From: Desulfuromonas sp.
Lineage (GTDB): Bacteria; Desulfobacterota; Desulfuromonadia; Desulfuromonadales; BM103
DNA length: 41,291 nt
Assembly (NCBI GenBank): GCA_012026975.1
Contig: VEPG01000046.1
Span: forward strand, 12,367-53,657
Reading direction: 5' to 3'
Shown piece after piece: positions 6,985 through 13,983 of the stretch. Under the pieces are notes generated by a model that saw only the letters and a program-made list of their open reading frames with translations, was not told where the DNA came from and made no database searches. Numbering within the stretch: the first letter of the stretch is position 1; each line of letters opens with the position of its first letter. Position numbers and translations under genes: made by a program.

Positions 6985-7101
6985 TCAGCTTCTTATAAAC
7001 GTTTGCGCGGCTTTGCCGGCAATTTCTCGTGCCTCAGCACCCAATTCTCCCCGTATCGACAGGCCAAGGGCGGGAGAACCTGCCTTTACGGTGATGGTCA
7101 T
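6985..7101 (-). CDS. Small 38-codon ORF coupled to the ferredoxin gene
   Basis: The ATG overlaps the ferredoxin TGA stop as ATGA, the usual sign of translational coupling. The product starts MTITVKAGSP and ends KAAQTFIRS, with no cysteines, no membrane segment and no family I recognise. It could be a short protein of the RIC-ferredoxin operon or a chance reading frame before the terminator. Its position at the operon end is the only support. Confidence 0.35.
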   Translation of the reverse strand: MTITVKAGSPALGLSIRGELGAEAREIAGKAAQTFIRS

Positions 7102-7292
7102 TCTTTCCAGTAGATGCAGGAGACCGGGCAGGCATTGACGGCGTCGTTTTCGATTTGCTCCTCCGGAGCGCCGTCCGGATCGAAGCACTCCGCCTTGCCG
7201 TTCTCGGCAAAACGAAAGACTGCCGGGAGATTATCGATACAGAGTCCACAACTGATACACTCATCCTGATCCACCCACGGTTTTTTCGCCAT
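7098..7292 (-). CDS. Single-cluster [4Fe-4S] ferredoxin
   Basis: A 64-residue ferredoxin of the Desulfovibrio type. Cys12, Cys15 and Cys18 (CISCGLC) and Cys55 in ACPVSCIYW are the four ligands of one [4Fe-4S] cluster. The second cluster motif of clostridial ferredoxins is absent. Cys36 and Cys59 could form the internal disulfide known from such proteins. The ATG at 7292 is chosen for AAGGAGAG just upstream; a longer frame adds 15 unlikely residues. It lies 41 bases downstream of the RIC protein on the same strand, suggesting electron supply for iron-sulfur repair or NO/oxygen stress metabolism, which is inference from context. Confidence 0.9.
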   Translation of the reverse strand: MAKKPWVDQDECISCGLCIDNLPAVFRFAENGKAECFDPDGAPEEQIENDAVNACPVSCIYWKE

Positions 7293-7333: not shown

Positions 7334-7750
7334 TCAAAACAGTGCGGCCTTCGGGAAGAGGATATTGTTTTCGAGGCGGACATGTTTGTGCAAATCCGCC
7401 TCGAATTCTTTGAGCTTTTGACAGGTGACCGCGAAGCTGTTACAGACATCGGCCGGTATCGCATAGTCCTTGCTCAAACGACGGATCGCATGGATTGCAT
7501 CGCTGATTTCCACATGCTCGCGGCCTAGCTTCAGGAGAGACACCCTGATCACTTCACGATCCTTCGTCGCCGGAATCCGACCGGTTTCTTGAGAGGTTGC
7601 GGCCCGCCCTTCTCGTTTCGCTTGGCCGCCACAGCAGAAGTCGATACCGTGTCGTTCGAAGACGGCTGCGGTACGATAATCCTCGGCGACAAACATGCCG
7701 ATCGATTTATCTACCGCACCCGGTGTCTGTTGCTTTTTCGGGCTTGCCAT
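7334..7750 (-). CDS. Compact RIC/ScdA-like iron-sulfur repair protein
   Basis: The family repairs iron-sulfur clusters after nitrosative or oxidative damage and usually has about 220-240 residues: a ScdA_N (DUF542) domain plus a full hemerythrin-like four-helix bundle. Here the ScdA_N domain is intact (AEDYRTAAVFERHGIDFCCGG at residues 22-42, Cys39-Cys40). The C-terminal helices are also intact: REHVEISDAIHAIRRL, then EADLHKHVRLENNILFPKA ending near 135. The intervening helices that normally carry three of the five di-iron histidines are missing, replaced by about 25 residues. Total length is 138. Only His79, His123 and Glu127 of the expected ligands remain. The start has AAGGTG upstream. It heads an operon with a ferredoxin. 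Confidence 0.75.
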   Translation of the reverse strand: MASPKKQQTPGAVDKSIGMFVAEDYRTAAVFERHGIDFCCGGQAKREGRAATSQETGRIPATKDREVIRVSLLKLGREHVEISDAIHAIRRLSKDYAIPADVCNSFAVTCQKLKEFEADLHKHVRLENNILFPKAALF

Positions 7751-10256: not shown

Positions 10257-10709
10257 TTATGCCGTTGCTTCGACCTGTGGGGAGGACTGCAGCCGGTCGA
10301 TGAGGTCGATGATCTCCCAGTAGTAGGCGATCAGCAAGTTGGTACTGAGCCAGTTGCCCCAGATGATTTTCCAAAGCGATGTGCCGAAGACCGCGGTCCC
10401 GGTGCAGATGATTATCCCGCCAATGCGCAGGCCGTCTTCGGTCATCATGTAGAGGCCGAAGCCGAACAGGAGAAACATGAGCAGCAGCCAGCAGACCTGG
10501 GTATTGCGGAAGGGATTTTCAAACAGGGAAAGGCTGTCGATGTAATAGGCCAACAGGTTGCGTGTGTGCTTCATGAACTGTTCGATATCACCGGCAGTGG
10601 CTACGAGATAGACGTACGCGAGAAAATGTTCCTGCGCAACCCGGCGCGTCTCATGCTGCCGCTCTTCCGCATACCGTTTAATAGCCTTGTCGATTTCCTC
10701 GCTTTTCAT
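10257..10709 (-). CDS. Small membrane protein of unknown function
   Basis: A 150-residue protein not recognised as any named family. An amphipathic, charged N-terminal region of about 70 residues, rich in Arg, Glu and Gln and ending in YYIDSLSLFENPF, precedes two hydrophobic helices (WLLLMFLLFGFGLYMM and GGIIICTGTAVFGTSLW). A short cytoplasmic C-terminus follows. The ATG at 10709 is chosen for the strong GGAGGTG before it. The gene lies convergent to the c-di-GMP gene and about 230 bases downstream of another small membrane protein on the same strand. Confidence 0.65.
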   Translation of the reverse strand: MKSEEIDKAIKRYAEERQHETRRVAQEHFLAYVYLVATAGDIEQFMKHTRNLLAYYIDSLSLFENPFRNTQVCWLLLMFLLFGFGLYMMTEDGLRIGGIIICTGTAVFGTSLWKIIWGNWLSTNLLIAYYWEIIDLIDRLQSSPQVEATA

Positions 10710-10940
10710 GGGCCACCTCCGTTTCACCGAAGATGAGAGAGTTTTTCAGTCACTCTCAGAGGCAGCCAGGCCATCCGCCTTCGCCAACGGTTCACGCCGG
10801 CTTTGCCACGATCCGAGAGGACTCTTCATGACTCCACTGTAGCACAATTAATCCGTATTTCCAGTGGGGGGCTGTTCATGCTCTGTTCAGAAATGGGGGG
10901 CGGCAGCGAGGGGCTTTCCCGGAACTGCCGGCTTTGTCCG
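10710..10940. other. Intergenic region, no gene seen
   Basis: This 231-base gap lies between two minus-strand membrane protein genes. It holds a loose inverted repeat GAGAGAGTTTTTCAGTCACTCTC around 10735-10757 and no convincing reading frame. It probably contains the promoter of the gene at 10257-10709. Confidence 0.3.
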
Positions 10941-11378
10941 TCAAACGTCTGAAAAGCGGAAGGCATCGGACGGCGGTGACTGGGCAAACAATCCCTTGAC
11001 GGATTCCTTGTTGAGAACAATCAGGGTAAAGACGCCGAGAACCGTTCCGAACGGGATCATCATGCATTCAATGCCGGCGACGATCATGCAAAACGTCATC
11101 CCTTTGCGAGCCTTCAGTTTCCTGCCAGCGATGATCATGCACGCGGCAAGGCTCCAGCCGAGCAGGATACAAAGGGCGCCGATGACAATAAACAGCCAGC
11201 CGAACCATGCTTCTGGCGGCCCCGAATTATTGCTGTTTTCCGCAAATTTTCCGGTGACCATGGCAACGCCGATGAAGACATGGATGAACGGCATGCAGGA
11301 AAACAAGGCCGTGAGCCCGCCCACGATGTAGTGAAACATTGACAGGAGATCCAGATTCCTCAGGTCTTCATTTGTCAT
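10941..11378 (-). CDS. Small multi-pass membrane protein, unknown function
   Basis: A 145-residue protein with three to four predicted membrane segments: FHYIVGGLTALFSCMPFIHV, WLFIVIGALCILLGWSLAACMII and a last segment ending in FGTVLGVFTLIVLN. It ends in a polar tail beginning KESVKGLF. I recognise the general pattern as a widespread hypothetical family in which a C-terminal G-x-x-L-G-x-x-x-L-x-V-L-N motif is conserved, but no function is known. The ATG at 11378 is preferred over the adjoining GTG at 11381. The gene starts about 20 bases after the stop of the PPDK_N protein, so it is probably in the same operon. Confidence 0.6.
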   Translation of the reverse strand: MTNEDLRNLDLLSMFHYIVGGLTALFSCMPFIHVFIGVAMVTGKFAENSNNSGPPEAWFGWLFIVIGALCILLGWSLAACMIIAGRKLKARKGMTFCMIVAGIECMMIPFGTVLGVFTLIVLNKESVKGLFAQSPPSDAFRFSDV

Positions 11379-11397
11379 CACGGTTCCCGCCAGCCCC

Positions 11398-13983
11398 CTA
11401 CCGGTAACACAACAGCCGCTGACTCACCACGTCCGCCAGCAGCTGCAGCCCCTCGCCGGGGAGATTGTAGACCTTGACCACCTTCTTGTAACGACTGCTG
11501 GCCGGCATGATCCCTTCCAGGGCGTTGGGCAGTTCCTCCAGCCAGCCGCGGCTGAAGGTGCAGAATTCGCTGTCAGGGAAGAGTGCCACGTAGAAGATGT
11601 CGGCCTCGACCAGGTCCTGGAAGAAGTGGGTGCCGAAGGAAAGCTCCGGCATCAGGTTGCCGCCGGGGAAGGCCACCTCGGCCAAAGCGGTGATGTTGTT
11701 CAGTTCGGCAAAGGTCACCGGCACCCCCAGCGACGGGGTGGAGGTTCCCCAGCGTCCCGGCCCGATCAGCAGGGTCGGCACCTCGCGGCGGTCGCCGAGG
11801 CGCCGGTTGAGCCGGCCGATCAGGCGCGCCACCTCGTACTTCTCGGCCAGCGGCAGGCGGATGTACTCCTCGGAATCGACCAGGATGATGCGGCGGATCG
11901 TCTGGGCGATGCTCCCGCCCATGAAGTGCCCCTCGGTGGCGAAGAAGACCCGCTCCTCGCCGATCCCCTGCGGGATGTCGACCTTCTGCGCTTCGCCCTT
12001 GGTCTGCAGCGGCCGGCACTGGACGACGTTCAGCACCGGGCTGCCCGCCACGTCGAAATTGACGGTGAACTCGACGTCCACCGGGTAGCGGTAGACCCCT
12101 TCGAGGGTCTTGAGCATGCGCTGCATCATCCCGGTGAACGGCCCCTCGGAGAGGAGTGTATCGAAGGTCAGCAGCCAGACTTTCTGCTGCTTGCCGCCAC
12201 GCTCCTCCAGGCGCTTGGTGGTCTCCCAGTCGGGGACCGCGTAGCGCGACCAGTCGATCCCCACCTCCTGGCGGAACAGATCGAGCAGGGAGACGGTTTC
12301 CGGGCGATTGCTCTCGATGTTGATCAGATCGACGTCGCGCTGGGCAAAGCGGCGGGCGTCGTCGAACCCCTTCAGCGGCCGCTTGAGCGGCGCATCGAGG
12401 GCGACGATCCGTGGGTAGTCCCCTTCCACGCGGTCGACGGCGCGGGTGCCCAGGCCGGCCACCAGCCGCAGCATGCCGGCCTTCGGGTCCATCTCCTTCG
12501 ACCAGACGAAGGTGTTGTAGGAGACGCCGACCCCGGCCAGGTCGGGGAAGTAGTAATGGTTGCGGTAGCTGCCGGAAACCCGCTGGATCAGCAGCCCCAT
12601 CTGCTCCTCCAGCCGGTCGAGGCCGCGCTGGCGGCGATAGGCCAGAGCGTCCTCGCCCATGGTGCTGGCGAAGATCGCCCGCACCACCTCTTCCAGGCGG
12701 GCGCAGCGCTCCTCCGGGGAGCCCTGGTTGGCCAGGAAATAACTGTCGTACTTGCCGGCGAAGGCATTGCCGAAGCCGTCCTCGAGCAGGGAACTGGAGC
12801 GGACGATGATCGGGTACTGGCCGAAGTATTCCAGCATCTGCTGGAAGGCCTCGCGGATCTCCTCGGGGAAGCTCCCCTGGCGCATCTTCTCGCGCAGCTC
12901 GGCGGCGACGCTGAAGTAGCCGTCGTCGGTCTTCTGCTGCATCAGCAGCTTCCACCAGCCGTTGTGAACGATATAGGAGTAGTAGACATCGGAGCCGACG
13001 AAGAACGAATCGTGCTGTTCCAGGTGGTTCTTCCAGTCGAACTCCCTGTTGGTCAGCAGGATGCGTCTGGCCAGCAGCATGCCGGCGGCCTTGCCGCCGA
13101 CGAAGCCGGTGCCGATCATGCGCGCCTTGATGCCGAGCAGGTCCTCCAGCGTCAGGTAGGCACGGGCCAGGGAGAGAATACGGTCCTCGCGGCCGATCAT
13201 CACCCGGCAGAGCTGGTCGATCATTGGCGCGGTCGCCTCCGGCGGGCTCCCCGAAGCGATCAGATCCTCGGCCTGCAGGAAGAGGCGGTCCCAGTAGTCG
13301 AGCTGACGGCGACCGCTCTCGGTACCGCGCCGGCTGATGCTGGAGAGCAGCTCGGTCGCCTCGAAGCTGCCGGCCACCGGCAGGAAGCTCTCGGCGGCCT
13401 GGGCATGGGGGAGGAACATGGTCGGCGAATGGCGCTGCCAGACCTTGATCGGATGGACGTGCATCGTTTCCCGCCAGGTGTGCACGCCGATCATGACCTG
13501 GGTGGTCTCGCGAATCTTGGCGGTGGTCTTGAAGGAGTGACTGCCGCGCAGCAGGGCGAAGTAGGCCACCGTGTCAAGCTCGAACAGATAGGGGCAGGTC
13601 ACCTGGAAAAAATTGCCGATCACCTGGTCGGTGGCCCACGCCGAGAGCAGGTCGGAGAGGCAGTCGAAGACGTAGAAGGCGTAGCGCCCCTCCTCGGTGG
13701 CGATGGCGTGGACCTTTGATGCGAACGATTCGAACCCCTGGAAGGCGTCAAGCTGGTAGGTGACCACGTTCGGCGCCGACACCACCAGCGGCTCGTGGCG
13801 GCCGAAGCGCATGTAGACGACGCGCCGTCCGTCGGCAAGGGCCTGGCGCACATAGGGGGTGACGAAGGCCTTGTAGTCGGCGATGTTGTCGACCCGCCAG
13901 ACCACGTTGTCGCCGATGCGCAGGCTGTCGAGGATCTGGTCGAGGCCGGGGATGCCGGTGGAGACGCGGGTGTTCTTGTCCAT
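11398..13983 (-). CDS. PEP/pyruvate-binding domain protein with KaiC-like N-terminus
   Basis: An 861-residue protein. Residues 1 to about 200 resemble a RecA/KaiC-type fold (STGIPGLDQILDSL then VVYMRFG), but the P-loop lysine motif is replaced by RIGDNVVWRV, so ATP binding there is doubtful. From about residue 285, GTGFVGGKAAGM begins an ATP-grasp domain of the PPDK/PEP synthase N-terminal type, with PIIVRSSSLLEDGFGNAFAGKYDSYF as nucleotide loop and LNVVQCRPLQTKG as domain end. The C-terminus adds IGPGRWGTSTPSLGVPV. The swivelling phosphohistidine domain and the PEP/pyruvate TIM barrel of true PEP synthase are absent, so it is not a complete pyruvate-phosphorylating enzyme. It probably phosphorylates or senses something else. 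It lies 37 bases after the HerA-like ATPase gene. Confidence 0.8.
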   Translation of the reverse strand: MDKNTRVSTGIPGLDQILDSLRIGDNVVWRVDNIADYKAFVTPYVRQALADGRRVVYMRFGRHEPLVVSAPNVVTYQLDAFQGFESFASKVHAIATEEGRYAFYVFDCLSDLLSAWATDQVIGNFFQVTCPYLFELDTVAYFALLRGSHSFKTTAKIRETTQVMIGVHTWRETMHVHPIKVWQRHSPTMFLPHAQAAESFLPVAGSFEATELLSSISRRGTESGRRQLDYWDRLFLQAEDLIASGSPPEATAPMIDQLCRVMIGREDRILSLARAYLTLEDLLGIKARMIGTGFVGGKAAGMLLARRILLTNREFDWKNHLEQHDSFFVGSDVYYSYIVHNGWWKLLMQQKTDDGYFSVAAELREKMRQGSFPEEIREAFQQMLEYFGQYPIIVRSSSLLEDGFGNAFAGKYDSYFLANQGSPEERCARLEEVVRAIFASTMGEDALAYRRQRGLDRLEEQMGLLIQRVSGSYRNHYYFPDLAGVGVSYNTFVWSKEMDPKAGMLRLVAGLGTRAVDRVEGDYPRIVALDAPLKRPLKGFDDARRFAQRDVDLINIESNRPETVSLLDLFRQEVGIDWSRYAVPDWETTKRLEERGGKQQKVWLLTFDTLLSEGPFTGMMQRMLKTLEGVYRYPVDVEFTVNFDVAGSPVLNVVQCRPLQTKGEAQKVDIPQGIGEERVFFATEGHFMGGSIAQTIRRIILVDSEEYIRLPLAEKYEVARLIGRLNRRLGDRREVPTLLIGPGRWGTSTPSLGVPVTFAELNNITALAEVAFPGGNLMPELSFGTHFFQDLVEADIFYVALFPDSEFCTFSRGWLEELPNALEGIMPASSRYKKVVKVYNLPGEGLQLLADVVSQRLLCYR

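Follow-up and report, generated by a model that had tools for sequence, protein, structure and literature searches.

The window analyzed here, a stretch of 41,291 nucleotides from a Desulfuromonas sp. genome, carries a ric gene of only 138 codons. A full-length RIC-type stress protein normally carries two iron atoms, and the locus raises the question of whether such a short ric is a new compact design or a damaged gene. Our analysis points to the second rather than the first. Most likely, a ric-fdx operon for nitrosative stress has suffered an in-frame internal deletion, and the shortened product is left without a di-iron site of its own. We favor this reading because both short forms that we found have changes at invariant sites, because the cut runs across two domains, and because ric fragments occur across the class.

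Structure of the short ric gene

The earlier note described an intact frame, a ribosome binding site, and conservation of both the ScdA_N domain and the last hemerythrin helices. The frame is indeed uninterrupted over its 138 codons (Table 1), and its product runs from the first half of ScdA_N, which includes the CCGG motif, through a linker to helices C and D of a hemerythrin-like bundle. Residue numbers refer to the 138-aa protein, while profile, family and YtfE comparisons were run on the 137-aa translation without the first Met. The Hemerythrin match (30.2 bits, cut-off 25.3) covers only profile positions 73-127 of 127, in keeping with the conserved last helices. The ScdA_N match (49.5 bits, cut-off 32.5) is not that of a whole domain, as it covers only positions 2-32 of 56, compared with 2-55 in the full-length protein of G013, a genome of the same family. 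The nearest curated family is the RIC equivalog TIGR03652, which scores 96.5 bits and thus falls under its cut-off of 204.7. The proposed ribosome binding site comes down to an AAGGTG upstream of the start, a weak match read by eye. No promoter-like site was found at the gene and nothing convincing emerged as a regulatory site common to the gene and its relatives, while repeats at the locus are limited to short, chance-like families. Most named relatives identified through ric belong to the Desulfuromonadia.

Compared with G026a, its closest full-length relative, the gene has a net loss of 105 codons, and both ends of the two proteins line up. The exact join is ambiguous by several codons, since the linker residues align in more than one way. 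The deletion spans the second half of ScdA_N and bundle helices A and B. Residues 75-134 of the Met-less translation form a gap-free alignment with YtfE 157-216, which shows that H160, H204 and E208 have counterparts in the short ric and that H84, H129 and E133 do not. The E159 equivalent is also kept. None of the six ligands varies among 80 full-length proteins of the class, and the short ric has three of them. The gap proposed earlier is thus real, but it takes two histidines and one glutamate instead of three histidines. The vicinal cysteines of CCGG (residues 39-42), invariant in the same 80 rows, are retained.

Set against the hallmarks of RIC proteins (YtfE, ScdA; TIGR03652), the short ric has the CCGG cysteines and descent from RIC, as well as a ferredoxin association seen in its relatives. 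It lacks a score above the family cut-off, a complete ScdA_N, a complete four-helix bundle and the full set of six ligands, and it is much shorter than the usual length of about 240 aa. Descent from RIC is indicated by the 81 of 103 core residues in common with the RIC of G026a and by the ric-fdx pair in the genomes G013 and G089.

Table 1. Coordinates of the short ric, its retained motifs, its ferredoxin neighbor and the second short ric. Positions are those of the window unless a locus is named.
Feature	Position	Strand	Evidence
ric with internal deletion, 138 aa	7334..7750	(-)	frame, domain and family matches, YtfE alignment, fold prediction
Deletion junction, approximate, codons about 43-52	7595..7624	(-)	alignments and length difference
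E-H-V kept (YtfE E159 and H160 equivalents)	7511..7519	(-)	YtfE alignment, 80-row count
HVRLE ligand motif kept (YtfE H204 and E208 equivalents)	7370..7384	(-)	YtfE alignment, 80-row count
64-aa [4Fe-4S] ferredoxin gene, second of the ric-fdx pair	7098..7292	(-)	Fer4_13, E 5.9e-13; pair also in G013 and G089
Second in-frame short ric, 149 aa (G1372:C3)	L136:4042-4491	(-)	both halves joined in frame; reads GIDFSCGGKA-AHLRDEEEKFFP

Elsewhere in the window, an 861-aa protein (11398-13983, minus strand) has a PPDK_N domain at 293-671, and its N-terminal 290 residues appear RecA/KaiC-like by eye, with no Pfam match at E 1e-5. Two small membrane-like frames on the same strand (10257-10727 and 10941-11381) have no Pfam match at E 1e-5 either.

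The ferredoxin neighbor and the ric-fdx operon

The ferredoxin partner named in the earlier note was confirmed; its frame begins 41 nt downstream of the short ric and the gene still appears intact. The same arrangement recurs in G013, where a full-length 240-aa ric is followed 43 nt on by a 64-aa ferredoxin, and in G089, a genome of the same order with a 240-aa ric and ferredoxin pair. Plasmid pPRO1 of Pelobacter propionicus (L208, 75080-81763) carries a full-length ric in a cluster with hcp, a ferredoxin resembling that of the window and a flavorubredoxin, next to a Tn3 transposase; the ric-fdx set is therefore plausibly mobile and tied to nitrosative stress. Only ric and fdx of the pPRO1 set are present in the window itself. 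Ferredoxin has been proposed as the electron donor of YtfE in a passage of PMC9052748, which also notes a ferredoxin-like domain in P. propionicus.

Constraint on the retained part

To place the retained residues, we used 80 full-length rows of the class (60 from the class list and 21 from the order, minus one identical row), with the short forms kept apart. The short ric departs at two sites that are invariant in all 80, G83S and H125R, the latter being the R of HVRLE where every full-length protein has His; in a leave-one-out count, no full-length row has changes at more than one such site. The H125 equivalent in YtfE is Ser. At sites conserved at 95%, the short ric departs at 5 of 49, which no full-length row reaches. 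The second short form, found in the genome G1372, departs at two invariant sites as well (C39S and E117G; 0/80 full-length rows do so) and at 2/49 of the 95%-conserved sites, a number reached by 13/80 full-length rows. The end branches of the short ric and the G1372 form have lengths of 0.34 and 0.36, where the median is 0.09, and rank sixth and fifth longest of 82. The likelihood of the retained part is not extreme, as 5 of 68 full-length relatives in an earlier relative set are as low.

Faster evolution than the linked ferredoxin was also considered. Ferredoxin identities are alike among the linked pairs (48-52 of 64), whereas core identities in ric fall to 77 and 73 of 104 for the short gene, versus 89. 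With G026a as reference, however, divergence is similar, with 82/104 residues in common for the short ric and 84/104 for G013. As this comparison shows no difference, accelerated evolution was dropped and is not claimed here. Judged by its substitutions, constraint on the short ric is relaxed or changed, not absent.

Search for other short ric genes

The short ric is the sole ric found in its genome, a 2.83-Mb draft in 116 contigs that is 91% complete. The missing stretch is absent elsewhere in this 91%-complete assembly; the 240-aa G013 protein as query gave no further match at E<=10. A ric match is present in 20 of the order's 136 genomes, and besides the genome of the short ric all of them (19) have a full-length copy (frames 246-300). 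At class level, 87/277 genomes match, and frames shorter than 200 aa make up 7 of the 104 C-half matches: the short ric itself, the G1372 form, one frame cut by a contig end, and four fragments without the N-terminal half (G1410:C122, G1404:C21, G1331:C105 and G1372:C2). Broken ric copies are therefore not rare in the class. Additional stop-broken copies were seen at G089:C1:3892261-3892530 and at L143 (G1378:C137), in genomes that also have intact copies.

A global search of genome contigs gave 79 loci, all full-length (230-486 aa), with a peptide prefilter that would miss forms such as the G1372 gene (L136). Samples of four phyla had no further joined short ric among the short frames inspected. 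In the phylum of the source, 32/395 genomes match PF04405, and the six short or odd frames inspected are ScdA_N alone or a fusion; some of the ScdA_N-alone frames have an upstream extension that looks out of frame. In a second phylum (26/398 genomes), the six short frames inspected all lack ScdA_N and have a whole bundle. A third phylum, with at least 145 of 395 genomes matching, has one short frame among the matches listed, and it is stop-broken. The two short frames inspected in a fourth phylum (46/292 genomes) both lie at contig ends and have a whole bundle. Viral contigs gave no ric match, and 14 plasmid records carry annotated full RIC or hemerythrin genes or are unannotated, with length checked for H1 only. 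The searched passages of the open-access literature report no RIC without half of its bundle.

Among described short forms, DnrN-type RIC (NF041614) is nearest in being short and having the C-D helices, and it scores 38 bits on the 138-aa protein. However, the inspected RICs without ScdA_N have the whole four-helix bundle, whereas the short ric combines half a bundle with the start of ScdA_N.

The gene in G1372, a genome from elsewhere in the class, is the sole other joined in-frame short ric found. The search for RICs of about 140 residues with the same gap, proposed in the earlier note, thus succeeded for length, as the G1372 form has 149 aa, but not for the gap. In both forms the gap starts just past CGG, within two codons of each other (CGG-Q/K). 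In G1372 it ends before H129, so that H129, E133, H160, H204 and E208 (five of six) are kept and only H84 is lost, and Ser replaces the first of the two vicinal cysteines. The other gap end, the five ligands and the changed cysteine mean that this is not the same half-bundle architecture. Additionally, ric occurs in the G1372 genome at full length and as a fragment of 77 aa.

Compact protein or damaged gene

Alternatively, the short ric could be a compact RIC homodimer, in which two C-D hairpins form one four-helix bundle, two sets of H160, H204 and E208 rebuild a symmetric di-iron site, and the ferredoxin reduces it. We consider this unlikely, although it is the best placed of the other explanations. 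According to section 6.2 of PMC9268430, Fe1 in YtfE is bound by H84 and H204 and Fe2 by H129 and H160, with E133 and E208 bridging. From this pairing, the kept set makes up one symmetric half of the site, so that a pair of chains would supply four His and two Glu; a two-subunit di-iron site is consistent with the kept ligands. AlphaFold2 predicts two long helices for the single chain (62-92 and 104-137), with pLDDT 79-95 in the C-D hairpin block, under 50 at residues 40-52, and a pTM of 0.49. The predicted hairpin superposes on YtfE over 61 columns at 0.9 A, an outcome that is expected from an alignment input of full-length relatives and is no test of a dimer.

EncFtn works with an encapsulin shell. 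It offers a precedent, as this encapsulated ferritin is described in PMC5012862 as making its di-iron site from two two-helix subunits, each chain giving half of a symmetric site. The dimer site is proven in EncFtn and merely possible in the short ric, and no sequence relation between them is shown. S. aureus ScdA is a dimer with a complete di-iron site in each chain, according to a passage of PMC12412097. Against a working homodimer, the searches turned up no other half-bundle of this kind, since the G1372 form keeps five ligands and has lost the CC cysteine. Moreover, G83S (H160 +4) and H125R (H204 +2) alter residues next to the ligands that the dimer would use.

An iron-free function has a low probability. 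The gene would then encode a small thiol/helical protein, with the CC motif and the hairpin, that works alongside the ferredoxin or partners other proteins. The retained CCGG and operon partner would fit such a role, and Trichomonas RIC2 was reportedly isolated without a di-iron centre (PMC9268430). However, with ScdA_N halved, the CC pair has probably lost the fold that displays it, in line with the low pLDDT at residues 40-52, and no conserved family of such proteins was found.

We regard an assembly error or a minor-strain chimera, with a full-length ric in the true genome, as just as improbable. The draft is fragmented into its 116 contigs, which leaves room for an error, and two congeners offer no ric match for comparison. 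An assembler collapse, however, requires long direct repeats at the breaks. Across 20 full-length genes of the order (21 taken, one skipped), the longest word common to both break regions is 7 nt, which is too short for a collapse, and the frame is maintained over the join.

A single ancient compact RIC lineage containing both short genes is the least probable explanation: the nearly identical gap starts point to it and the AU test does not reject a single origin (p-AU 0.249 for 82 rows and 0.597 for 70, the joined tree being 3.49 log units better in the smaller set), but forcing one clade costs 13.01 log units under the denser 82-row sampling, the downstream breaks and ligand sets differ, and the two share 68/103 core residues, compared with 81 between the window gene and G026a and 77 between the G1372 gene and L187, their best full-length relatives. 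The two short forms are probably separate deletions.

We therefore return to a damaged gene as the likely explanation. On this view, ric was at first full-length in its ric-fdx operon for nitrosative stress and lost about 105 codons in frame within this lineage, perhaps between short repeats, through a deletion that took the middle of a working gene with half of ScdA_N, two helices and three ligands. The 138-aa product could presumably no longer make a normal di-iron site alone, and the gene would be a damaged copy under relaxed constraint, not a working compact enzyme. Several points argue against decay: the intact frame, the retained CC, E159, H160, H204, E208 and ferredoxin neighbor, the status of sole ric in its genome, and the existence of a second in-frame short ric with a near-identical upstream break.

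If iron were bound across two chains, the short ric would be a natural test of the RIC bundle as a duplicated half-site and would allow the disputed role of RIC, iron donor or nitrite reductase, to be studied in a minimal system. A true homodimer would mean that two identical halves are enough to make a RIC bundle work. If the gene is merely damaged, it documents how a mobile gene for nitrosative stress has been lost repeatedly in this bacterial class.
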